From contig CAIZRK010000008.1 of NCBI GenBank assembly GCA_903935355.1, forward strand, positions 1 through 64,000: DNA of 64,000 nucleotides, read 5' to 3'. This document shows, piece after piece, positions 42,871 through 56,504 of the stretch. This DNA is from an uncultured beta proteobacterium. Lineage in GTDB: Bacteria; Pseudomonadota; Gammaproteobacteria; Burkholderiales; Burkholderiaceae. The position numbers and the translations under genes were made by a program. The stretch's first letter is position 1. Each line of letters opens with the position of its first letter. A model generated the notes under the pieces. That model was given only the letters and a program-made list of their open reading frames with translations. It was not told the origin of the DNA and ran no database searches.

Positions 42871-45800
42871 TTACGCTTGAACTGTGTTGGCGTTTTCACT
42901 ATCAAGCCAGTCAATATTTCGCATCTTCCGAACAGTTACAAACTCATCACGGTTAGTTCCAATCGTGCCGTAATAGTTAAATCCATAACTTAACTGCGCA
43001 TAACCCCCGATCATATGGGTTGGCTTGAGCACAATTCGGGTAACCGAGTTATGAATACCACCACGTATGCCAGTAATCTCAGATCCAGGGGTATTAATAA
43101 TCTTCTCTTGAGCGTGATACATCATGATCATTCCTGGATTGACCCGTTGACTTACTACTGCTCGCGCAGCGATTGCGCCATTAGTATTAAATAATTCAAC
43201 CCAATCGTTATCCACAATTCCTGCTTTAGTGGCATCATCCTCACTCAACCAAACTACCGGCCCACCTCGATTTAATGTCAACATCATGAGGTTGTCGCTA
43301 TAGGTAGAATGAATTCCCCATTTTTGGTGTGGCGTAATGAAATTAAGCACAATCTCCGTGTTTCCATTGGGCTTAATGCCACGAATTTCATTAATGGTTT
43401 TCAGATCGACTGGCGGTCTGTAGGAGACAAATCCCTCTCCAAACGCACGCATCCACTTGTGGTCTTGATAAAACTGCTGACGACCTGTCAGAGTTCTCCA
43501 AGGAATGTATTCATGGACGTTGGTATAGCCTGCGTTATATGATACTTTTTCACTTTCCAGGCCAGACCAAGTAGGAGAGCTGATAATTTTCCTAGGTTGC
43601 GCCTGAATATCCCGAAAACGAATCTTTTCATCCTCACGATGAAGCGCTAAATGGGCATGCTCAAGTCCAGTGATTTTAGTTAAAGCATCCCATGCTTTTA
43701 CGGCAACATGGCCATTAGTTTCTGGTGCAAGCATCAGCACCACTTCTGCAGCATCAATATCAGTTGATATTTTTGCCATGCCTTTCATTTCACCATGCTC
43801 AACACGACCATTAAGCTCACGCAATTGCTCAACTTCCACTTTGGTATCCCAAGCGATTCCTTTGCCACCATTACCTACTTTATCCATCAAAGGACCAAGT
43901 GCGGTAAAGCGGTTATAGGTATTGGGATAGTCACGCTCGATTACCGCTATTTGTGGAGCTGTTTTTCCAGGTATGAGATCGCACTCACCTTTTTTCCACT
44001 CTTGTACATCAAAGGCTTGCGCTAACTCTGCTGGCGTGTCATGCATCAAAGGTGTCATGACAATCTCTTTTTCGACCCCAAGATGACCAACGCATACCTC
44101 TGAGAACTTCTTGGCAAAGCCTTTATAAATATCCCAGTCGCTGCGAGCTTCCCATGCAGGATCAACTGCAGTAGATAAAGGATGAATAAATGGATGCATA
44201 TCACTGGTATTTAAATCATTCTTCTCATACCAAGTAGCAGTTGGCAGAACAATGTCAGAGTACAAGCAAGTAGTGCTCATCCGGAAATCTAATGTCACCA
44301 ATAAATCTAATTTACCCTCAGGAGCTTTGTCATGCCATTCCACTTCAGATGGCCTTGCTTCATCTGTACCTAAATCTTTACCCTGAACCCCGTTGCTAGT
44401 ACCTAGTAAATGTTTTAAGAAATACTCATGGCCTTTGCCTGAGGATCCCAATAAATTTGATCTCCAGACAAACATATTGCGTGGCCAGTTATTGGGATGA
44501 TCCGGATCCTCACAGCTCATTTTTAAGGAGCCTGATTTCAAACTCTCCACCACATACTCTTTTGGATCTTTACCAGCAGCAATTGCCTCTTTTACCACCT
44601 CAATTGGATTGGTCTTCAGTTGTGGGGCCGAAGGTAACCATCCCATGCGCTCAGCACGCACGTTGTAATCAATCATGCTACCTTGGTATTCTTCCTTATT
44701 GGCTAAAGGAGATAAAACCTCTTCCATACCCAACTTTTCATAACGCCATTGATCTGTGTGGGCGTAGAAGAAGCTAGTGGAATTTTGTTGACGTGGCGGA
44801 CGAATCCAGTCCAGCGCAAAGGCCAATGGTGTCCATCCAGTTTGTGGACGAAGTTTCTCTTGGCCAACATAATGAGCCCAACCACCACCACTTTGGCCAA
44901 TACAGCCACATAACATCAACATATTAATAATGCCGCGGTAGTTCATATCGCAGTGATACCAGTGGTTCATAGCAGCGCCAATGATGATCATTGACTTGCC
45001 CTTGGTTTTTTCTGCGTTTTCGGCAAACTGACGTGCCACGGCAATTACCTGCTCTCGCTTAACCCCAGTAATCGACTCTTGCCATGCTGGAGTGTAAGGG
45101 ACATTGTCATCATAAGATTTAGCGCACTCACCACCTAGTCCGCGATCAATGCCATAGTTTGCGGCAAGTAAATCAAAGACGGTAGCAACCAACACTTCTT
45201 TCGTGCCACCGCCATCTACTAAAGTCATTTTTTTGGCTGGAATGTTTTGTACCAATACATCATTTTGTTTATTGGCATCAAAATACGGTGTATCAATACC
45301 ACCAAAGTAAGGGAAACCGACTGGTACCACTTCATGTAAAAGTTGGTCATCCATTAAAGATAGCTTGAGATTGACATCATTACCGTAGCGAGCTTCTTTA
45401 GACTCTAGATTCCACTTTCCTTGATCTTTACGACCTTCTGGGCCCCATCTAAAACCAATCGAGCCATTGGGCACAACCGGCTTACCAGCTGTATCTAGTG
45501 CAACAGTTTTCCAATCTGCTCCATTGGTTTGACCAAGACCACCTTCAAAATCACTGGAACGAGCATATCTGCCAGGAACCATGACGGTTCTGCCATCTTC
45601 TAGAACCTTCTCCTCGAGCAGCACTAAATTTGGCATATCTGTATAGCGACGCACATAGTCATCAAAATACTCAGTACGCTTAGTAAAATAAAACTCTTTT
45701 AAGATCACATGACCCATTGCCATTGCAATCGCAGCATCAGTACCTTGCTTTGGATGCATCCAAATATCGGCTAACTTAGAAACTTCTGCATAGTCAGGAG

Positions 45801-46644
45801 TAATGGCTACCGTCTTTGCGCCCTTATATCTAACTTCTGTAAAGAAGTGGGCATCTGGGGTACGAGTTTGAGGTACGTTTGAGCCCCAAGCAATGATGAA
45901 GGTTGAGTTATACCAATCGGCAGATTCTGGAACGTCGGTTTGCTCACCCCAGACTTGTGGACTAGCTGGCGGTAAGTCGCAATACCAGTCATAAAAGCTC
46001 ATGCAGACGCCACCAATTAAGCTTAAATAGCGTGAACCAGCTGCATAGCTGACCATCGACATTGCCGGAATTGGAGAAAAGCCAATAATGCGATCTGGGC
46101 CATGTTGTTTAATCGTGTAGACATTGGCTGCGGCAATAATTTCATTCACCTCATCCCATGAGGATCGTACAAACCCACCCTTACCTCTTAATACTTGCCA
46201 CTCTCTACGCTTGGCATTGTTTTCAACAAGATTAGCCCAAGCATCTACTGGTGATTTAGCCACTGCCTTTGCTTCACGCCACTGCTTTAAGAGGCGCCCA
46301 CGAATCATGGGATATTTAACTCGGTTTGCACTATACATATACCAGCTATAACTGGCACCGCGAGCACAGCCCCGAGGCTCATGATTTGGTAAGTCAGGGC
46401 GTGTACGGGGGTAGTCAGTTTGCTGGGTTTCCCAAGTAACAATTCCGCCTTTGACATAAATCTTCCAAGAGCACGATCCGGTGCAATTGGTACCGTGAGT
46501 GGACCGCACGATTTTGTCATGCTGCCAACGAGTCCGATAGGCATCTTCCCAAGTACGGTCTTCACCAACTGTGACTCCATGCCCATTGGAGAACTCTTCT
46601 TTATCTGCAGATAAAAACTTGAGGCGATCTAAAAAGTGGCTCAT
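42871..46644 (-). CDS. narG: Respiratory nitrate reductase, alpha (molybdenum) subunit
   Basis: A 1257-residue catalytic subunit that reduces nitrate to nitrite at a bis-MGD molybdenum site. The FS0 cluster ligands fit H50, C54, C58 and C93 (HGTNCTGSC ... RGCARG). The segment YDWYCDLPPASPQVWGEQTDVPES holds the presumed Mo-ligating Asp. No twin-arginine signal is present, so this is the membrane-bound cytoplasmic-facing Nar type, not periplasmic Nap. Length matches E. coli NarG (1247). It is followed by narH, narJ and narI and preceded 20 bases by narK2. Confidence 0.98.
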   Translation of the reverse strand: MSHFLDRLKFLSADKEEFSNGHGVTVGEDRTWEDAYRTRWQHDKIVRSTHGTNCTGSCSWKIYVKGGIVTWETQQTDYPRTRPDLPNHEPRGCARGASYSWYMYSANRVKYPMIRGRLLKQWREAKAVAKSPVDAWANLVENNAKRREWQVLRGKGGFVRSSWDEVNEIIAAANVYTIKQHGPDRIIGFSPIPAMSMVSYAAGSRYLSLIGGVCMSFYDWYCDLPPASPQVWGEQTDVPESADWYNSTFIIAWGSNVPQTRTPDAHFFTEVRYKGAKTVAITPDYAEVSKLADIWMHPKQGTDAAIAMAMGHVILKEFYFTKRTEYFDDYVRRYTDMPNLVLLEEKVLEDGRTVMVPGRYARSSDFEGGLGQTNGADWKTVALDTAGKPVVPNGSIGFRWGPEGRKDQGKWNLESKEARYGNDVNLKLSLMDDQLLHEVVPVGFPYFGGIDTPYFDANKQNDVLVQNIPAKKMTLVDGGGTKEVLVATVFDLLAANYGIDRGLGGECAKSYDDNVPYTPAWQESITGVKREQVIAVARQFAENAEKTKGKSMIIIGAAMNHWYHCDMNYRGIINMLMLCGCIGQSGGGWAHYVGQEKLRPQTGWTPLAFALDWIRPPRQQNSTSFFYAHTDQWRYEKLGMEEVLSPLANKEEYQGSMIDYNVRAERMGWLPSAPQLKTNPIEVVKEAIAAGKDPKEYVVESLKSGSLKMSCEDPDHPNNWPRNMFVWRSNLLGSSGKGHEYFLKHLLGTSNGVQGKDLGTDEARPSEVEWHDKAPEGKLDLLVTLDFRMSTTCLYSDIVLPTATWYEKNDLNTSDMHPFIHPLSTAVDPAWEARSDWDIYKGFAKKFSEVCVGHLGVEKEIVMTPLMHDTPAELAQAFDVQEWKKGECDLIPGKTAPQIAVIERDYPNTYNRFTALGPLMDKVGNGGKGIAWDTKVEVEQLRELNGRVEHGEMKGMAKISTDIDAAEVVLMLAPETNGHVAVKAWDALTKITGLEHAHLALHREDEKIRFRDIQAQPRKIISSPTWSGLESEKVSYNAGYTNVHEYIPWRTLTGRQQFYQDHKWMRAFGEGFVSYRPPVDLKTINEIRGIKPNGNTEIVLNFITPHQKWGIHSTYSDNLMMLTLNRGGPVVWLSEDDATKAGIVDNDWVELFNTNGAIAARAVVSQRVNPGMIMMYHAQEKIINTPGSEITGIRGGIHNSVTRIVLKPTHMIGGYAQLSYGFNYYGTIGTNRDEFVTVRKMRNIDWLDSENANTVQA

Positions 46645-46664
46645 ATCAATCCTTTAATATTTTC

Positions 46665-48047
46665 TTAGCAAGGCATAGGTGCATTTTTACGGCTGTAATA
46701 CCACCAAGTAATGACGGCACAGGTAACGTAAAAAATAATGAAGGCATACAAAGCGGCTTCAGGACCGCCAGTTGCAGCAATGGAAGATCCATAACTCTTC
46801 GGAATAAAAAAGCCGCCATAAGCACCAACCGCTGAACTAAAGCCTAGTACTGCCGCTGCCTCTTTATTGGCATCCCGAATGGCCTGATCTTTATCTGCCT
46901 GTGTGCTACCAGCAACACGCTGGCGCTCAGTTAGAAAAATGATCGGAATCATGCGAAAGGTTGAACCATTCCCGATTCCAGAAGTTGCAAACAAAATCAT
47001 GAAGGCGATTAAGAAGCCAAAGAACTCACCGCCATTACCTTGCACTGGCAAGTAATGCAGCACCCCAAAGACCCCGGCGCCCATCGCAATAAAGTTCCAG
47101 AAAGTCACCCGTGCACCACCGAGCTTGTCAGCTAGCCAGCCACCCAATGGGCGAGCTAATGCGCCAACCAAGGGGCCAAGCCAGGCATAACTTAATGCAC
47201 TGACACCAGGAAACTGACTCTTAATTAATAAAGGGAATCCAGCGGAATAACCAATAAAGGATCCGAAAGTACCCAGATACAACCAGCACATCAACCAATT
47301 ATGTTTACGCTTAAAAATAACTGCTTGATCAGCAAAAGAGGCCTTGGCTTGGGCCAAGTCGTTCATTCCAAACCATGCGGCAATTGCAGCTACTGCAATA
47401 AATGGAACCCATATAAAACCTGCATTTTGCAACCACATCGGAATAGGCTGACCTGCTTTCATCACCGTTTGTGAATCACCGCCAAGAGCGCCAAATACAC
47501 CAGCGGTAATTACCAAAGGCACTACCAACTGAACAATTGAGACACCCAAGTTACCTAAGCCAGCATTTAATCCCAAAGCAGTTCCCTTTTGCGCTTTTGG
47601 ATAAAAGAAACTGATATTGGCCATAGAAGAAGCGAAATTACCGCCACCCAAGCCACAGAGCAATGCCAAAATGATAAAGATTTCATAAGGGGTTGCAGTG
47701 TTCTGAACTGCAAAACCAATCCCAAGTGCAGGGATTAACAATGAGGCAGTTGAGATAGCAGTCCAGCGTCTGCCACCAAAAATAGGCACAGCAAACGAAT
47801 AAAAAATACGTAGGGTGGCGCCACAAAGCGCTGGTAAGGAAGCCAACCAAAAAAGTTGGTTAGTGGAGAATTTAAATCCCACATTGGGTAAATTAACAAC
47901 GACTACTGACCATACCATCCAAACCGCAAATGCTAGTGTCAGAGCAGGAATAGAAATGATGAGATTACGTTTAGCGATTGACTTTCCAGTCGAATCCCAA
48001 AACTGCTTATTCTCAGGTTCCCAATGATTAATTACGGTAGAGGACAT
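46665..48047 (-). CDS. narK2: Nitrate/nitrite transporter, NarK2 type (antiporter)
   Basis: A 460-residue major facilitator with twelve helices. The nitrate signature motifs are clear: GLGGGNFASSMANISFFYPK (helix 5) and GIGNGSTFRMIPIIF (helix 11). The opening LCGATLRIFYSFAVPIFGGRRW closely resembles E. coli NarK, a nitrate-in/nitrite-out antiporter, so I label it type 2. It lies between narK1 and narG. Tandem NarK1-NarK2 genes before narGHJI are known from Pseudomonas and other proteobacteria, where both are needed for full transport. Confidence 0.93.
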   Translation of the reverse strand: MSSTVINHWEPENKQFWDSTGKSIAKRNLIISIPALTLAFAVWMVWSVVVVNLPNVGFKFSTNQLFWLASLPALCGATLRIFYSFAVPIFGGRRWTAISTASLLIPALGIGFAVQNTATPYEIFIILALLCGLGGGNFASSMANISFFYPKAQKGTALGLNAGLGNLGVSIVQLVVPLVITAGVFGALGGDSQTVMKAGQPIPMWLQNAGFIWVPFIAVAAIAAWFGMNDLAQAKASFADQAVIFKRKHNWLMCWLYLGTFGSFIGYSAGFPLLIKSQFPGVSALSYAWLGPLVGALARPLGGWLADKLGGARVTFWNFIAMGAGVFGVLHYLPVQGNGGEFFGFLIAFMILFATSGIGNGSTFRMIPIIFLTERQRVAGSTQADKDQAIRDANKEAAAVLGFSSAVGAYGGFFIPKSYGSSIAATGGPEAALYAFIIFYVTCAVITWWYYSRKNAPMPC

Positions 48048-48062
48048 GGAGTCTCCCTTTCT

Positions 48063-49334
48063 TTACGATGAATAAATAACTGAGGGAATGGATTTAGCAC
48101 CCATCACTTCAGATTTGCGTACTTCTGTGAGATACATCCAAATCAAAGAAACCCAGACCACGCCGTACATCAACATGAATGCACTAGAACGAATACCGGT
48201 CAGATCTAAGATGGCGCCAAACATAATAGGGAGAACGAAACCTCCCAAACCACCTGCTAAGCCGACGATGCCAGAAATGGTGCCAATATTGTCTGGATAG
48301 TCATCACCGATATATTTGAAGACGCTAGCCTTACCGAAGGCCCAAGCGATGCCCAAGATAAACATCAGGCCAGTAAAAAAATAAATGTTCAGACCAATAT
48401 GAAATGTTTCTGGACCATTAATTGTCATAATGGTGAAGTCAGTTTGTGGATAAGAAAGTAAGAACAGACAGATCCAACTCACCCACATTACCCACCAGGT
48501 CACTTGATGTGCACCATACTTATCTGATAGCCACCCGCCAATTGCCCGCAATACACCACCAGGTAATGAGAAGCAAGCAGCCAAGAGTGCAGCAGTCCTA
48601 ATTTCTAGGCCAAATTCACCGACATAGTATTGAACCATCCACAGACTAAGACCGACATATCCACCAAACACAATGCTGTAGTACTGGCAGTAGCGCAGCA
48701 CCTTAGGATCTTTCAAGGCCTTGAGCTGGTCTTTAAATGAGATATTGGTCGACACTAAGTGAGAAGGCTCGCTAGCACTGAAGAACCAAAATAAAAGCGC
48801 AGCACCTAACATGACTGCGGCATAGACCTGAGGCACAAATGCCCAACCAAAACCAACTACTAAAGCTGGTGCAATGAATTTGTTCACTGCCGCTCCAGAA
48901 TTACCAGCGCCATAAACACCCATGGCAAAACCTTGGCGATTTTTTGGAAACCATCTAGCTACATATGGAGTACCAACAGAAAAAGATCCACCGGCCAATC
49001 CCACAAAGAGACCAATCACTAAAAAATGCCAGTAAGCCGTGGCATAACTCATCATCCAAATCGGGATCACAGTAGACATCATCAATAAAAACATGACAAT
49101 ACGACCACCAAATCGATCAGTCCAAATACCCAGTGGTACCCGAACGAGTGAGCCAGTCAAAATAGGCGTTGCCGTTAAGAGGCCAAATTCGGTAGCGCTA
49201 AGGCCTAGGGTCTTTTTGATTGGGATGCCGATTACCCCAAACATCAACCACACCATAAAACAGACAGTAAATGCAAAGGTGCTAACGATCAGAACCGAAT
49301 ATGCTTTAGAACTTGTTTTAACAATCGTACTCAT
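48063..49334 (-). CDS. narK1: Nitrate transporter, NarK1 type (nitrate/proton symporter)
   Basis: A 423-residue major facilitator protein. Its nitrate signatures are GLAGGSFSVGTPYVARWFP (helix 5) and GLAGGLGGFVLP (helix 11), close to NarK1/NasA-type carriers and different from NarK2. The first-helix region (MVWLMFGVIGIPIKKTLGLSATEFGL) also fits this group. It opens the nar structural operon, 127 bases after narL, and precedes narK2 by 15 bases. Proton-driven nitrate import is expected to start respiration before nitrite accumulates. Confidence 0.92.
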   Translation of the reverse strand: MSTIVKTSSKAYSVLIVSTFAFTVCFMVWLMFGVIGIPIKKTLGLSATEFGLLTATPILTGSLVRVPLGIWTDRFGGRIVMFLLMMSTVIPIWMMSYATAYWHFLVIGLFVGLAGGSFSVGTPYVARWFPKNRQGFAMGVYGAGNSGAAVNKFIAPALVVGFGWAFVPQVYAAVMLGAALLFWFFSASEPSHLVSTNISFKDQLKALKDPKVLRYCQYYSIVFGGYVGLSLWMVQYYVGEFGLEIRTAALLAACFSLPGGVLRAIGGWLSDKYGAHQVTWWVMWVSWICLFLLSYPQTDFTIMTINGPETFHIGLNIYFFTGLMFILGIAWAFGKASVFKYIGDDYPDNIGTISGIVGLAGGLGGFVLPIMFGAILDLTGIRSSAFMLMYGVVWVSLIWMYLTEVRKSEVMGAKSIPSVIYSS

Positions 49335-49338
49335 AAAT

Positions 49339-49465
49339 ACCCCTTCATCTTATGAGTGATTATCAAAACTATGGAGAGATAAAAATATCCCTCAAAAGAC
49401 CACTTTTAGAAAGCAGTCGAACTACCAAACATAAATACCAATAGTTCTTTAGACCTAGTACCTAT
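49339..49465. promoter_or_regulatory. Possible NarL heptamers before narK1
   Basis: TACCCCT (49339-49345) and TACCTAT (49459-49465) match the NarL heptamer TACYYMT fully; TACCAAA (49423) and TACCAAT (49436) match less well. They frame the region expected to hold the nar operon promoter. No good FNR box was found here by eye. Heptamers are short and occur by chance, so this is weak. Confidence 0.35.
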
Positions 49466-50121
49466 GATCCAATGCCCTGGGCACTAGCAAATACAGCCAC
49501 CTGTACGCGTGAAGAGAGATTGAGTTTGCGCAAAATATGTTGCACGTGAATTTTTACAGTAGTTTCAGCAATTCCTAATTGGCGAGCGATTTCTTTATTG
49601 CTTGAGCCTAATGCGATCAAACGCACGGTATCTATCTCCCTAGGAGATAAAGTGGCTGCTAAGGTAGTTGATTTAGTCTTCTCATCCTTCTTGGTATTTG
49701 ACTTAAAGGCACTAACTAACTTATGCGTCATTTCTTTACTAATAACTGATTCGCCATCAAATGCTTTGCGTATTCCTAAGAGTAAATCGTCTTTTTCGCT
49801 AGTTTTGAGTAAATAGCCTTGGGCGCCATTCTGTAGGGCCTGGATTAAATCACCTTCATCTTCGCTTACAGTGAGCATGATGACTGTAGACTCAGGAGAC
49901 GCCTGAAATAGATCCGGCAAAGACTGAATTCCGCTTGCGCCTGGTAAATGATTGTCGAGCAAAATGACATCTGGTTTGAGCGTTTTACACAATCGCAATG
50001 CCTCAATTGCATCGCCGGCCTCCCCTACAACTTCGAAGTCACTTGCCTGTGAAATCAGAGCAATCAAACCGCGCCTAAATAAGGTGTGATCATCAACTAC
50101 TAAAATCTGTATTTTTTCCAA
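49462..50121 (-). CDS. narL: Nitrate/nitrite response regulator NarL
   Basis: A 219-residue response regulator. The receiver domain (1-125) has the acidic pocket DDH and the presumed phospho-Asp in VILLDNHLPG, with the conserved TVS and K of YLLKTSEKD. A LuxR-type DNA-binding domain ends the protein (TLSPREIDTVRLIALGSSNKEIARQL). It is the partner of narX, 38 bases upstream, and precedes the nar structural genes. It should activate the nar operon in nitrate. Confidence 0.95.
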   Translation of the reverse strand: MEKIQILVVDDHTLFRRGLIALISQASDFEVVGEAGDAIEALRLCKTLKPDVILLDNHLPGASGIQSLPDLFQASPESTVIMLTVSEDEGDLIQALQNGAQGYLLKTSEKDDLLLGIRKAFDGESVISKEMTHKLVSAFKSNTKKDEKTKSTTLAATLSPREIDTVRLIALGSSNKEIARQLGIAETTVKIHVQHILRKLNLSSRVQVAVFASAQGIGS

Positions 50122-50159
50122 TTTATCCTACCTTCAATAGTCAGATCAATGAATATAAC

Positions 50160-52019
50160 TTATGCCGGCAGTGTTAAAGAAATACAAGTGCCAGTCAGTG
50201 CAGTAGAGGCGACCTCTAGTTGAGCGCCAATCTTAGCAGCCCGCTCGCGCATAATACTCATGCCAACGTGGGTACTATCAACAGAATTTGAAGTGATGGA
50301 GAAGCCTGTGCCATCATCAATCACTTTAAAAACCCACTGAGGAGACTCCTGAACCTCAACCTTCACAATAGAAGCTCTAGAGTGTTTTCTGGCATTAGAT
50401 AAGGCCTCTTGCAAAATATGCATCACTTGTATTTGAATATCTGGCCTGAGTGGTAAACCTTGGCCTGCAATCAATAATTCAGTCTTAATGCCAGACTGGT
50501 GCTCAAATTTTTGGAGTGTTGTTTTGATCGCTGGCTCTATATTTTCAGAGTTAGTACGAGTTCTAAAATGCAATAAGAGTTCGCGAACATCGCTGTAACT
50601 TTCACGCAACCCTTCATCTAATTCACCTAAAATAGTCTTTGCTCTAGTGCTAGCAGGCCCTACAATCTCATCGCGTAACATGCCTACTTGTATTTTCAGA
50701 AATGCTAAGGATTGCGCGATAGAGTCATGTAACTCTCTTGCTAGTAGACTACGCTCCTCCGAGATGGCGGCCTCCTTTTCTAATGCCTTAATACGAAGGG
50801 CCTCCATGGCACCCGCTAAATGATGGGCTAAGGTTTCTAATAAAGATTTTTGTTCAGCATCATTCTCATACTCATCAGCATAGAAAATATCAATCTCACC
50901 TAGCAAGCTCTGCTGAAAAAGAATCGGAACGGTAATGAGTGTTTTGTATCCAGCCTTCACGCAATGCCGCTCAAATTCTTCCTTAGGATTAAAGGTCACA
51001 ATTTGAATCTCTGTATTACCGGTGGATTGACCACAATAGCAATCCCCAGAAATGACACATGTCTCTTCATTCATAATAGAAGAAGGTAGCTTTGCACCGG
51101 CTAATAAAAAGTACCTCCGGTTTGCTTCATCTGTCCACCTAATTGCAATCGCAGAGGCTTTGCACAGAATCAAAATACGCTCTGAAAAACCTTTTGCCAA
51201 TTTTTCTAAATGACTTTCTGTCGACACAAATGAACTTAGATCATATAAAGCCTGCAAACGAGTTTGCCGCTCTTGCAAATGCAACGTCTTCTCTTTGACC
51301 TTGGCCTCAAGACCGCTATATAAATCACTTAAGTTTTCAGTCATGGCATTAAAACCAATTGCTAAATCACCGAACTCATCTTTGGCTTCAATTTGAACCC
51401 GTGTATTTAACTTACCTGACTTCACACTTTCAAAGCCTAGGCGTAATTTTTCTACTGGGTCCAAAATAACGGAATACCCTACATACATAATGACTAGGGT
51501 AGCAATGAGTGAAATGGCCAGCATGGCAAATTGGAATAAATGCAGCAAGCCTGTCCAATAGTCAACCTCGATCTCAATTGACCCCACAAATTGATCAATC
51601 TGGGCAATAAATTGATTGATATTGCCAATGCTCAGTACACTACTATTGCCCTTGACTACCCCCTCTTTAATATCCTCCCATTGATTTTGAATATGCGAAA
51701 AATACTGCCTATTCTGCCTATTCCATGGTACAAAAAGTGGTCTTGAGGGATCACCCATTTTCAATAAGCTAATGCTGTTATCAAACTTCATTAACAACTT
51801 TGTGCTTGCTACTTTGTCTTTTTCACTCACTAATAGTGCCAACTGATAGGTTTGCATCCTCATGCGTCCAGCTTCATTAATCGCAGCAGCACCGCCCTCT
51901 AATTTCCAGGTTACCCATAAGGTAAAACTAATCGAAATCATCGCCAACACCAAAAGAGTGGTGCCAATAATCATCAATTTGTTTTTTAAGGTAAATTCAG
52001 TATTGTTCATCTCTAACAT
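50160..52019 (-). CDS. narX: Nitrate/nitrite sensor histidine kinase NarX
   Basis: A membrane sensor of about 619 residues. It has two helices with a periplasmic domain that contains the nitrate-sensing P-box (AINEAGRMRMQTYQLALL), then HAMP, a GAF-like domain holding several cysteines (CVISGDCYCGQ), and a HisKA_3/HATPase kinase (phospho-His in LARELHDSIAQSLAFLK). TTG at 52022, ATG at 52019 and ATG at 52010 are all possible starts, and none has a clear Shine-Dalgarno. It is divergent from the TDT transporter gene with almost no spacer. Confidence 0.94.
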   Translation of the reverse strand: MLEMNNTEFTLKNKLMIIGTTLLVLAMISISFTLWVTWKLEGGAAAINEAGRMRMQTYQLALLVSEKDKVASTKLLMKFDNSISLLKMGDPSRPLFVPWNRQNRQYFSHIQNQWEDIKEGVVKGNSSVLSIGNINQFIAQIDQFVGSIEIEVDYWTGLLHLFQFAMLAISLIATLVIMYVGYSVILDPVEKLRLGFESVKSGKLNTRVQIEAKDEFGDLAIGFNAMTENLSDLYSGLEAKVKEKTLHLQERQTRLQALYDLSSFVSTESHLEKLAKGFSERILILCKASAIAIRWTDEANRRYFLLAGAKLPSSIMNEETCVISGDCYCGQSTGNTEIQIVTFNPKEEFERHCVKAGYKTLITVPILFQQSLLGEIDIFYADEYENDAEQKSLLETLAHHLAGAMEALRIKALEKEAAISEERSLLARELHDSIAQSLAFLKIQVGMLRDEIVGPASTRAKTILGELDEGLRESYSDVRELLLHFRTRTNSENIEPAIKTTLQKFEHQSGIKTELLIAGQGLPLRPDIQIQVMHILQEALSNARKHSRASIVKVEVQESPQWVFKVIDDGTGFSITSNSVDSTHVGMSIMRERAAKIGAQLEVASTALTGTCISLTLPA

Positions 52020-52035
52020 CAATATATAAAAAATA

Positions 52036-52998
52036 ATGCAAAGTGACCTCGAACCAAATTGGCTTCGCCGCCTTCATCCAGGCCTTTTTGGGATGTCCCT
52101 AGGGCTATTAAGCCTTTCATTTGCCTGGACTAAGTATTCCAAAATATCGGCTAGCACCACCCAGATAATGGAACTCTTCTTCCTTGGGCTCGGTTTGGTC
52201 ATTCTATGCCTACTGACAGTGCTCTGGAGCATAAAAGCCTTTTTGTATCCAAGCGCCATTAAAGAGAAATTCTTAAACCCTGTTTTAGGGCCAATGATGG
52301 CTTACTTCCCCATAAGCACTCTTCTTGCAGTCGCCCTCATTATTCCAAATAATCCCCAGTACGCCCTCTTTGGATACACCTTGACGGTGATTTCCCTCTT
52401 TATCCTAGTCCTAATAGCATGGCGAGTAGTCCACCTCTTATCAATGGGGGATATGCCAACTGACCAAGTAACCCCTGCACTGTACTTGCCGATTGTTCCG
52501 GGCGGCCTAGTGGGTGGCGCAGCCCTAAATGCGATCGGATTTTCCGGCTTTGGGTACTTAGTCTGGGGGATGGGTCTAGGGGGCTGGGCATTATTAGAAA
52601 TGCGCATTTTGCATCGTCTTTTTGCTGGTCCACTCCCCCCGCAATACCGCCCAACCATCGGTATTGAAATGGGGCCCGCTGCAGTAAGTACCATTACTGC
52701 CATTACGATCTGGCCCAATCTACCAGTTGATGTCATCTTGGTAGGTCTTGGCATTGCCTCTGGTCCTATTTTTGCTGTCCTAACCCGCTGGAGGTCTTGG
52801 ACGGCAGTGCCGTTTTCCTTTGGCTTTTGGTCGTTTGCATTTCCGGCAGCGGCAACTGCTTCATGTGTCATCGAAGCAGTAATCAGAGGTGGCTGGCCTC
52901 ATCAAGCGGCAACCATTGCAATTAGTAGTGCTACTGCCATCGTCCTATTTTTATTAACTCGCACAACTATTTTGCTAGTTAAGCGACAACTCTATTAG
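52036..52998 (+). CDS. TDT-family transporter (TehA/SLAC1-like)
   Basis: A 320-residue membrane protein with about ten helices of the tellurite-resistance/dicarboxylate (TDT) family, the TehA/SLAC1 fold. Markers are LRRLHPGLFGMSLGLLSLS at the start, PIVPGGLVGG and SFGFWSFAFPAAA in the later half. Family members are anion channels or carboxylate carriers, and plant SLAC1 conducts nitrate and chloride. It starts 13 to 26 bases from the narX start and converges on nrdJ. A link to nitrate or nitrite movement is an inference from position only. Confidence 0.85.
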   Translation: MQSDLEPNWLRRLHPGLFGMSLGLLSLSFAWTKYSKISASTTQIMELFFLGLGLVILCLLTVLWSIKAFLYPSAIKEKFLNPVLGPMMAYFPISTLLAVALIIPNNPQYALFGYTLTVISLFILVLIAWRVVHLLSMGDMPTDQVTPALYLPIVPGGLVGGAALNAIGFSGFGYLVWGMGLGGWALLEMRILHRLFAGPLPPQYRPTIGIEMGPAAVSTITAITIWPNLPVDVILVGLGIASGPIFAVLTRWRSWTAVPFSFGFWSFAFPAAATASCVIEAVIRGGWPHQAATIAISSATAIVLFLLTRTTILLVKRQLY

Positions 52999-53000
52999 CG

Positions 53001-56000
53001 CTATCCACAGCTACCTATAAATCCACAGTTGGTACAGTACTCACAGCCATCCCTTTTAATCAGCGCATGAGCACCACAATCAGGGCATTTTTTTCCTGCA
53101 ATTAAACTGCTGCTCATATTTTTTTGGCTATCGACCTCTCCAATAGTAAATTCTTCAGAGGATTTAAATTCAGTAATTCCTCTTTTAGCCAAGATATTCT
53201 CAATTGCAAAGGCAACTGCTGCAACTTCTGAGTCATGCCACATGGGAGCTAGAGCGCCATCTTGTTTTTTCTTGGTACCCAAGCGAACAGGGCCTCTATC
53301 CCATGCGACTTTTTTCATGTCACTAAGGGCTCTTGCTAAGAAACCGCCTCGAGCTGCTAGAGAAAGCATGCGCATACTCGATGTAATCCATTGCTGAGAC
53401 TCTCCACTTTGTCCAACTGGCATAAAGAACTCAATTGCCCGCTCAACACTAGATTTTTTACCATCCGTAATACCTTCTACCGTCAAGAAAGAAATAATGA
53501 GGTAAAGGGTTTTTTGGCCATCTTGTGTCCAATAGCTAATTTTTTCCGCAACAGCAGGGAGTTCCCCATTAGGTCTGCGATCCACCACTTTTTTAGATGG
53601 GTTACTTCTCCAATCTTCAGCGTCAATCTCAGCATCTGAAATTGCTTCTGAGGGGGTTGCTGTAACAGTAAGCACAGAACCCAAAATACTATTTGGACGA
53701 TAAGTGGCTAAACCTTTTAACTTAGCCTTCCAGGCAGTTAAATACAGATCTTTAAATTGCTCATATGGGTAATCTGCTGGCACATTGACAGTTTTAGATA
53801 TAGCCGTATCAATAAATGGCTGCACTGCCTCCATCATTAAGACATGATCTTGTGCTGACATCTCTAAAGCGGTAACAAAATACGCCGGTAGCGCATTAAC
53901 ATCGCCCCCTAATTGACGGTACATTCTCCAGGCATGGTCTTCAACCGCATATTCTTTTGAAGAGCCATCAGCCTCCCTTTTCTTTCTGGTGTACATCCAT
54001 GAAAAAGGTGGCTCGATTCCATTGGAAGCATTATCAGCAAATGCAAGACTCACAGTACCAGTTGGGGCAATAGATAGCAGATGGCTATTTCTTAATCCAT
54101 GTTTGCGAATACTAGCTTTAAGGTCTTCGCCTAGTCGACTAGCAAAATTTCCGCCAGAGAGATATTGATCAACATCTAACTTTGGAAATGATCCCTTCTC
54201 TTGGGCTAACTCTACTGATGCCCCATAGGAAAGGTCCCGAAGTTGCTGAGCAATTTCTGCAGCCTTTGAACGTCCAGCAGCACTGTTATACGGGAGCTTT
54301 AACATAATCAAGGCATCGCCTAAGCCTGTAAAGCCAACCCCAATCCGGCGCTTTGACTGCGCCTCAAGACCTTGCTCTTCAAGTGGCCAGTAAGTTACAT
54401 CTAAGACGTTGTCCAACATTCTGACTTGAGTCTTTACTACTTGTGCGAATTTGTCAAAATCAAAATAAGGCTCACCCTCAAATCCAAATGGATTAACTAC
54501 AAACTTAGGAAGAATAATCGGACCTAAGTCACAACAGCCATAAGGTGGCAATGGTTGCTCACCGCAATTGTGAACATATAAGCCATTAGCATCAAATGCA
54601 TTAACCCCTGGAATTTGCACGTCATAAACGGGCTCTGCACCATCATCAATCAAAGATTCAACAGTAGCAGTAAAGCGTTCTCGATTTAATTTTCTTGAAT
54701 AAGTCGATAGCCATTTATCAATCGTATTGCGTTTTTGCGCATCGGTAAAGCCTATCAGATCAGAAAATATTGCCATGTTATCGCCTGAAATAACGAGCTC
54801 ATGCTCTGGTTGGCAGGGGTTTTCAAAATTCCCTTCCAGTCCTTTTAGCATTAAACGAAGGGTTGGCTTATCACCGCGACGATTCTTATAAATCGTAGAC
54901 ATCACCCCCAAACGGGATAGCATCCGCTGCACCTTGGATAGGGTATCAAGATCTGACTGAACCAAGCGAATACTTATGCCCTTTTCTTGAGATCCCTGAA
55001 TAGACCCATCGGCATCGAAAAATCCACGTAAGCAGCCAATATAAAAATCAGAAGAGCTGAGCTCAAGAACATCAGTGATTTTTTTATTGTCAACAGACAT
55101 GCCTAGCTCTAATGCTAGATCTCGTAAAGCCGAACTACTTAAATGAAATTCATTTCTCTCTAAAATTGGACTAAACCCTTGATGGTCGAACCTTTGAGAC
55201 GCAAACGAAACCCCATTCACCACATTTAGCCGTACATCACAAACGTTCAATACGGCGTGCTCTGCTTGCAAGGATCCGTTACCTAGCAATAAGCCAATCA
55301 AATATCCCTGCTCCTCAGAATATTTCCCCTCCCAACCCGCAAATGCACGATGGTTATGAAGAACGATCTGCTCCCCTGGCTGTAGCTTGGATGCCTCTAC
55401 CCATTCATTGGTTTGTCGATAAGGTGTCTGTCCTATGACTTTGAGAACCAAGTGATTTCCAGTCAACCTGAGGGCGTGCCCCTCCTTGGTACTTAACTTT
55501 AAGATCGGCTTAATGCCTGTTTTAAAGAATCCCTGCTCGCCAGATAAATATTCTTGCCCGTTGACTATAGAAATAAACTGTTTGCCAATCAATCCTTTGA
55601 CTTGCTCTGGTCCATGAGCAGTAAGCACCCAAGTATCGGCTGTAACACATGGGTTGGTGGCATCAATATGCTCGCAGTAGTACAAATTATTATCGCGATT
55701 AATATTATCCAAAAACAAAATTCCGGGCTCCGCAAAATCATAAGCTGATTGCATTACCGCATCCCAGATTTCTCTTGCTTTTAAAGTTTTATAGACCCAC
55801 AGACCATCCGCTCTAAGGTGCGCTCCACTAGCAATAAATAATTCACCTGGCCTTGCTTTATGAATAAGCTCTACATCACCATCTTTTTCCACTGCCTGCA
55901 TAAACTCATCAGATACCCCCACTGAAACATTAAAGTTATTCCACCTACCAGGAGTTCTTTTTGCAGTAATAAATTCCAATACATCCGGATGGTCAATTCT

Positions 56001-56504
56001 CAGGACGCCCATTTGAGCGCCACGCCGAGCTCCTGCACTTTCCACAGTAGAGCAAGATTGATCAAATACATTGATGTAACTACAAGGACCAGAGGCAATC
56101 GAAGCAGTCCCCTTGACCTGCGCTCCTTTGGGACGAATTCTTGAAAAGTCATAACCCACGCCACCGCCCCGACGCATGGTTTCAGCAGCTTGCTTTAAGG
56201 CTTCATAAATTCCAGGATAACCATCCTCGTCTAAACCCTGAATACAATCTCCCACGGGCTGCACAAAGCAATTAATCAAGGTCGCCTTGATACCTGTACC
56301 AGATGAACTCATAATGCGGCCAGCACCGATTGCGCCAGCCTCAAAATTATTTAAAAATCGCTGTTCGATTTCTTTCTGAATCAAAGGGTCTTCTGCAGAC
56401 GCTAGATTTTTGGCGACTCGAGCAAAGATGGTTTGTGCATCTTGCTCCCCACTCTTTAGGTATTTTTCAGACAAAACATCTAGACTAATTGGCTGCATAA
56501 CCAT
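53001..56504 (-). CDS. nrdJ: Adenosylcobalamin-dependent ribonucleotide reductase (class II) with intein
   Basis: An 1167-residue precursor; without the 361-residue intein the mature enzyme is about 806 residues. It reduces ribonucleotides with B12 and needs no oxygen. The 10-stranded barrel core has NCFVQP, the glycyl/cysteine loop around [19 protein letters not shown] (split by the intein), and a late [20 protein letters not shown] zinc ribbon ends the protein (CPDCG ... CEYCTNCG). It overlaps the upstream flavin oxidoreductase gene by 20 bases and is last in that operon. No cobalamin riboswitch was seen upstream of the operon. Confidence 0.96.
54567..55649 (-). mobile_element. Intein with LAGLIDADG endonuclease in NrdJ
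   Basis: A 361-residue insertion (residues 286-646) interrupts NrdJ between ATNP and CGEQPLPP. It starts with Cys ([10 protein letters not shown]) and ends YVHN just before the extein Cys, the standard splice-junction residues. Blocks A, B (TGNHLV) and F/G ([21 protein letters not shown]) are present. The homing endonuclease has two LAGLIDADG motifs, [11 protein letters not shown] and [11 protein letters not shown]. In the first the usual catalytic Asp (GDG) is Asn. Splicing should work; DNA cutting may be lost or reduced to nicking. The insertion site is a conserved active-site loop, a common intein home in RNRs. Confidence 0.93.

Follow-up and report, generated by a model that had tools for sequence, protein, structure and literature searches.

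The nrdJ intein and its insertion site

An intein interrupts the ribonucleotide reductase gene nrdJ of an uncultured freshwater Polynucleobacter, and one of its two endonuclease motifs lacks the usual acidic residue, which raises the question of whether this element is still mobile or is a splicing intein with an endonuclease in decay. The gene lies at 53001-56504 on the minus strand, as do all of its features given below, within the 64,000-nucleotide stretch of DNA that was analysed (hereafter the window). It encodes a precursor of 1167 amino acids of the B12-dependent (class II) enzyme, which exceeded the cut-off of TIGR02504 in a profile search (556.7 against 399.95 bits) and matched the structure 1xje at E 1.2e-71. 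A preliminary description had placed an intein of 361 residues at 54567-55649, at the junction ATNP/CGEQ, and this was confirmed by the translation of the open reading frame together with profile matches. The intein, from Cys1 to His-Asn, corresponds to precursor residues 286-646, and it matched LAGLIDADG_3 (76.8 bits, cut-off 22.5), Intein_splicing (40.3, cut-off 35.8), the intein N-terminal domain (26.2, cut-off 24.5) and the C-terminal domain intein_Cterm (16.5, cut-off 15.6). Over its whole length it shared 70% identity with another intein of the genus inserted at this site and 50-55% with 78 others, indicating that the assignment is not due to chance. An N-extein ending in ATNP (55650-56504) and a C-extein starting with CGEQPLPP (53001-54566) were parsed from the translation, and the predicted mature NrdJ has 1167 - 361 = 806 amino acids.

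The splice residues are intact, as the preliminary description had stated. Cys1 is present and invariant across 80 aligned inteins, Thr63 and His66 (TxxH, which we take to be block B) fall in invariant columns of the aligned inteins, and the intein ends in YVHN/C, that is, His360-Asn361 followed by Cys+1 (54564-54566). These are the features of a class 1 intein. The N-terminal splicing part (residues 1-108, 55326-55649) was delimited from invariant columns and modelled strands and the endonuclease part (residues 109-310, 54720-55325) from alignment, rates and the model, the limits of both being our own choice, while the C-terminal splicing part (residues 311-361, 54567-54719) was supported by a profile match, invariant columns and the model. 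When the protein was aligned with the Thermotoga maritima enzyme (1xje), its finger-loop cysteine, which directly follows the intein, fell on Cys322, as did Cys1 in the N-terminal piece. Cys+1 is presumably the thiyl-radical cysteine, and the Asn, Cys and Glu of NPCGE are assumed to be the catalytic triad; if these roles hold, the intein splits the triad and unspliced NrdJ cannot work.

In the interval 42871-56504 of the window, nrdJ stands beside narG, two narK-like transporters and a NarX/NarL-like pair. Among the 186 genomes of the genus, narG was observed in 20, and 19 of these also carry NrdJ. A second intein was observed in the same genome, in DnaB at GK/T of the P-loop (G000:C31:25056-25205; L002:523-3018, minus strand). 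It starts with Ala-Gln-Pro and ends with HN before Thr, and we take it to be of class 3.

Catalytic residues across type-A inteins

The first LAGLIDADG motif (55269-55304) reads LIGLLLGNG, so that the catalytic position is Asn124 (codon AAC, 55278-55280), and the second motif (54999-55034) keeps Asp214 (55008-55010), in agreement with the preliminary description. To compare these positions, contigs were scanned with two patterns from intein residues 1-23, which lie outside the endonuclease; 437 relatives were obtained, and the best 80 of the 437 were kept. Like the window intein, all 80 of these beta- and gammaproteobacterial loci parse as NrdJ inteins flanked by TNP and C(G/A)EQ that start with Cys1 and end in Asn; they are referred to here, with the window intein, as type A. 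Together with the window intein and L004, the intein of another Polynucleobacter genome (G147), they form an alignment of 82 inteins, 81 of them distinct. Column 124 is Asp in 80 of the 82 and Asn in two, the window intein and L083 of Methylobacter marinus A45, and column 214 is Asp in all 82. Thus, 80 of the 82 keep both catalytic residues, unlike the window intein, and the alignment offers no alternative position for a true first catalytic Asp, the possibility that would have overturned the reading of the motif.

The comparison was extended to 116 distinct type-A inteins by adding loci from class and phylum samples to the similarity-kept set. The first Asp is present in 113 of the 116 and lost in three (Asn in the window intein and L083, Ala in L155), and the second is present in 115 and lost in L134 (Asn); because most of this sample was picked by similarity to the window intein, the counts are not unbiased frequencies. 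Five loci not parsed as full inteins (L126, L128, L149, L151 and L176) stand outside the counts of 116 type-A and 17 type-B inteins (type B is described below); L149 and L151 were later recognised as type-A inteins that keep both Asp residues.

Deletion and accelerated divergence in the endonuclease

Besides the substitution, the window intein has 16 residues fewer than the intein L034 of Polynucleobacter sp. Latsch14-2 after the first motif (361 against 377 amino acids), and the deletion point falls between residues 152 and 153 (55193-55194). Nineteen majority columns after the first motif are missing in the window intein, and none of the other 115 type-A inteins lacks half or more of them. 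AlphaFold2 models of both inteins were built from the same 80 sequences, with mean pLDDT of 91.8 for the window intein and 91.0 for L034. A helix at residues 154-165 in the first repeat of the L034 model has no counterpart in the window model, although pLDDT was below 50 nearby, at residues 142-154 of the window model and 142-151 of the L034 model. An active LAGLIDADG endonuclease should have two complete repeats, and in the window intein the first is incomplete, its helix being missing relative to the L034 model; the acid at the end of the first motif is replaced by Asn124, and that at the end of the second is retained as Asp214.

The window intein departs from 15 columns that are conserved at 95% or more in the 82-intein alignment, 13 of them in the endonuclease, against five departures for L004; only L075 (28) departs more often than the window intein. 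A relative-rate comparison, polarised by 78 outgroups with one closest relative, assigned 14 endonuclease changes to the window intein and two to L004 (p = 0.004, from 16 decided sites, with 50 differing sites undecided), and in the splicing parts six and five changes, respectively (33 sites undecided). L075 was left out of these outgroups, as also of A2 and A4. Branch lengths for the window intein and L034 were 0.492 and 0.178 in the endonuclease and 0.186 and 0.244 in the splicing parts. The rates and branches are thus raised in the endonuclease and not in the splicing parts, so that decay appears confined to the former. The difference between endonuclease and splicing identity was the lowest of the 82 inteins for the window intein and the second lowest of the 116, after L155, although the deviation is moderate (z about -2.5).

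L155 itself, a type-A intein of 361 amino acids with Ala at the first catalytic position, showed the strongest endonuclease-specific divergence of the 116. The Methylobacter marinus A45 intein (L083:4001-5131) has the same Asn as the window intein and no endonuclease-specific divergence (rank 57 of 116), indicating that the Asn substitution alone does not prove decay.

The window intein retains the second Asp, most of the fold and an open reading frame. Endonuclease dN/dS between the window intein and L004 was about 0.10 at a near-saturated dS of 2.6, and on this basis the decay seems to be recent relative to the age of the allele.

The nrdJ site within Polynucleobacter

NrdJ was found in 31 of 186 genomes of the genus (the window genome and 185 others). 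Two sites hold type A (the window genome and G147), six hold type B (G136, G135, G142, G015, G143 and, in part, G139), 22 are empty and one lies at a contig edge (G137). The suggested look for the insertion in related genomes thus yielded intein-free NrdJ in 22 of 31 and a further type-A copy in G147. The DNA of the G147 intein (L004) equals that of L034 from Polynucleobacter sp. Latsch14-2, which is why the genus was identified as Polynucleobacter. Within the type-A clade the window intein pairs with L034 (pair support 1.0, midpoint-rooted FastTree). A family-level search with the window intein at E<=1e-5, in 398 genomes drawn from a larger group, returned only its own copy, G147 presumably not having been drawn.

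An extein tree of 27 Polynucleobacter NrdJ sequences (from the 31 genomes) and L034, with five short-extein loci excluded, interleaves the site states. The window nrdJ stands beside the empty gene L010 and the type-B gene L005, with 90% extein identity to each, and L004 is surrounded by L028 and L031, which are empty, and by L008 and L009, which carry type B. Between L005 and L007, the inteins are 91% identical (pS 0.36) and the exteins 72% (pS 0.77); because the inteins are far closer than the exteins, type B has moved between the two nrdJ clades. For type A, which may have arrived in two nrdJ clades vertically or horizontally, the synonymous sites between L003 and L004 were saturated in both extein and splicing part.

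The flanks of the insertion were compared in segments of equal size, the comparisons having been chosen after an earlier look at the data and the segments being overlapping and not independent. The 120 bases flanking the L004 intein are less like the empty gene L028 than any of 695 other segments, and their likeness to L008 is matched only by the top 4 of 695. When L004 is set against L028 and L008, a short stretch on either side of the insertion, about 60 bases each, has the look of gene conversion. The L004 pattern is as expected if co-conversion accompanied homing. No such dip was observed in the flanks of the window intein relative to the empty L010; for type-B L005 against L010 there was only a weak dip (99 of 697 segments as low or lower), and for L008 against L031 no dip to speak of (177 of 695). 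In the two empty genes L010 and L011, identity near the site was also raised (11 of 697 as high or higher), indicating that the site is conserved anyway. The type-B and empty-gene comparisons thus speak against conversion of the flanks by homing.

A second intein lineage at the same codon

Type B (L005-L009, L116-L125, L127 and L156, with L025 and L126 in part) occupies exactly the same NrdJ codon as type A, has a similar length (374 amino acids in 13 of 17) and carries a LAGLIDADG endonuclease, and is only about 26% identical to the window intein. The ends also differ, being Gly-Gln in 16 of 17 and Ala-Gln in one (VTGQ or similar before Cys) for type B, against His-Asn in 115 of 116 and Ser-Asn in one for type A. 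A C-terminal Gln supports splicing elsewhere, for example in the ribonucleotide reductase intein of Chilo iridescent virus, according to PMC4031507. That the two types are homologous as inteins follows from an hhalign alignment along their length (probability 99.9, 25% identity).

Type B is 36-37% identical to the NrdE inteins of SPbeta-type phages and Miltoncostaea and 30% identical to that of Brochothrix A9. In an IQ-TREE analysis with NrdA and DnaB inteins as outgroups, type B and NrdE inteins were separated from type A and the outgroups (SH-aLRT 98, UFboot 100), the root resting on these two outgroups in a tree with long branches, with the Proteus and Corynebacterium inteins left out. Type B and NrdE inteins were also joined in the midpoint-rooted FastTree (0.943), the place of type B among the NrdE inteins having support of only about 0.2. 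In contrast, IQ-TREE without an outgroup and with the long-branched Proteus phage intein put types A and B on the same side against NrdE (UFboot 100, as printed after midpoint rooting). These three trees included 32 of the 116 type-A inteins (seven chosen, 25 random), and the Thermus phage intein was in none. Since type B falls with the NrdE inteins of phages and bacteria and not with type A, the rooted tree suggests that the NrdJ site was colonised twice independently.

A type-B query run against a class sample of 369 genomes had hits in 43 of them (E<=1e-6), and 12 of the loci are type B (L116-L127, L126 in part); the other matches that were fetched and parsed are type A, except L128 and L176, the latter being the L126 locus. 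L128 is an NrdA-like class I reductase whose intein follows directly on the finger-loop Cys (SSNLC/C...N/T), one residue from the A/B position. The precursors L116, L117, L123 and L132 seemingly have a second, upstream intein that ends in VIHN before CGIG and carries the motif LAGLIDTDGT, starting outside the loci. Within type B the first Asp is lost in four of 17 (once to Glu) and the second in one of 17; decay therefore occurs in both lineages. Among the 133 inteins of both types, only the first Asp is lost in six, only the second in one and both in one, and no bias toward loss in the first motif is claimed from these numbers.

Comparison with known inteins

The closest known relative is the Latsch14-2 intein, which shares with that of the window the site ATNP/CGEQ, 70% identity, the ends and the splicing residues, but which keeps the first catalytic Asp and the following helix in its 377 amino acids and has flanks that look recently converted. 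A published beta-/gammaproteobacterial example, likened here by description, is the Azotobacter chroococcum NrdJ intein (residues 321-690; PMC4465626), and an intein in a ribonucleotide reductase of Methylococcus capsulatus is reported in PMC517821. The window model matches the structures of TliVMA, PI-PfuI, PhoVMA and PI-SceI (E 8.7e-18 to about 1e-12). In the Pyrococcus horikoshii VMA intein (PhoVMA, PDB 7qst; E 5.8e-14), too, a splicing fold is joined to a LAGLIDADG domain that is folded but without catalytic residues; this intein belongs to another host gene and, according to PMC8966425, neither of its motifs retains the active-site residues and its second motif helix is partly gone. The SPbeta BnrdE intein and its NrdE relatives (L114, L115, L178, L179 and L181) are likewise inserted before the homologous finger-loop Cys (SNL/C.E), but SPbeta and Miltoncostaea are only 24.6% and 26.2% identical to the window intein, and all five end in Thr-Gly-Asn.

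The idea that phages or plasmids spread type A was rejected, as no close relative was found in viral contigs, phages or plasmids. Neither the window intein nor A1 had a relative in scans of viral contigs; among phages 22 records matched, none reaching 60% identity (21.5-24.6% among the 20 matches listed), and the plasmids gave two matches, 24.6 and 26.2% identical to the window intein. A literature search with most subscription journals outside its scope found no paper pairing 'intein' with 'Polynucleobacter', and among the partial texts on same-site or allelic inteins within the same scope nothing was recognised as this case.

Probable decay in the homing cycle and alternative explanations

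The element is very probably a class 1 type-A LAGLIDADG intein at the finger-loop Cys codon of NrdJ that splices and no longer cuts both DNA strands, and that represents the 'Y' allele of the homing cycle. Judging from the intact splicing residues and the conserved splicing domain, splicing should still work and give NrdJ of 806 residues, while the endonuclease would no longer make double-strand breaks. Because the insertion splits the catalytic loop, splicing would be kept by selection, and the site would stay occupied while the endonuclease drifts, the allele moving under the homing cycle toward loss or a mini-intein. Degenerated endonucleases are expected under the homing-cycle model, which according to PMC3229294 has three alleles, the one with a dysfunctional endonuclease being immune to invasion, and such endonucleases are documented for PhoVMA in PMC8966425. 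The post-homing decay proposed in the preliminary description is thus well supported by the lost first Asp, the lost helix and the endonuclease-specific acceleration, whereas the deletion, the sister intein with an intact motif, the empty sites and the second lineage had escaped it.

The same description had offered a nickase instead. In that case the Asp214 site would cut one strand and nick-driven gene conversion would keep the element mobile. Such an enzyme has some appeal, as the second Asp is kept by 115 of the 116 type-A inteins and by 16 of the 17 of type B, against three and four losses of the first, respectively, and engineered LAGLIDADG nickases are known from PMC3943268, where an I-AniI nickase appears as a cited reference. 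A point change alone could make a nickase, but in the window intein the damage extends to the first half of the endonuclease fold, with the first-repeat helix gone and fast divergence only in the endonuclease. Moreover, no identity dip was observed beside the insertion relative to the empty L010, the excess of first-motif losses is small (six against one, with one intein lacking both, n = 133), and one of the changes (L127, Glu) is still acidic; a natural nickase is thus improbable. Asn-Gly is the fastest-deamidating pair, and an Asn-Gly at the catalytic position might also be read as a slowly self-activating endonuclease in which Asn turns to Asp, the same pair being present in L083 and type-B L124. 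Against this, helix ends are rigid and deamidation gives mostly isoaspartate, a lost helix stays lost, and the residues that otherwise replace Asp there (Gly, His, Glu and Ala) look like random decay, so that hardly any weight attaches to self-activation.

It could further be supposed that the Asn codon is a sequencing or assembly error or a strain-level variant and that the real population has an active endonuclease. The genome is a draft (44 contigs, 94.1% complete) and Asn124 is one codon, but the protein also has an in-frame deletion and 15 scattered departures from conserved columns, which a single error cannot produce; we regard this as very unlikely. Splicing as a redox control point, also raised earlier, would mean that a Cys1-Cys+1 disulfide keeps NrdJ inactive under aerobic conditions and lets it go once oxygen is absent. 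Both cysteines are present, nrdJ lies about 6 kb from narG in an anaerobic setting, and disulfides of active-site cysteines make intein splicing redox-sensitive according to PMC4031507; the same review states that, as of 2014, conditional splicing of physiological relevance had yet to be found. The cysteine pair occurs in all 82 parsed type-A inteins and so is not special to the window copy, 22 of the 31 NrdJ genes of the genus have no intein, and NrdJ splicing need not limit growth, as the genome encodes apparent class I subunits NrdA and NrdB. A redox switch accordingly has as slight a likelihood as a faulty codon. Decay of the endonuclease within the homing cycle remains the reading preferred here.

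Implications

Endonuclease decay in inteins is textbook knowledge, and the finding as given is ordinary; it is the two-lineage setting that is unusual. According to a 2009 paper (PMC2814812), inteins found at one site in orthologous proteins are close relatives of common descent, whereas the same-site inteins here are about 26% identical and the rooted tree joins one of them to inteins of another reductase class. One genus thus presents empty, intact-looking and decayed alleles of one lineage, a second lineage at the same codon, and exchange between diverged nrdJ genes. This setting would make the three-allele homing-cycle model (PMC3229294), and its extension to two elements, testable in freshwater bacteria with named isolates. 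A tentative extension, which we consider possible but doubtful, is that the radical-Cys codon of NrdJ is contested: types A and B, of separate origin, would replace each other and empty alleles within the genus, and the dead type-A copy would persist because an occupied site makes the gene immune to live type B as well as to its own kind. If this were true, a selfish element that is itself broken would be shielding the gene from a selfish element of another kind.
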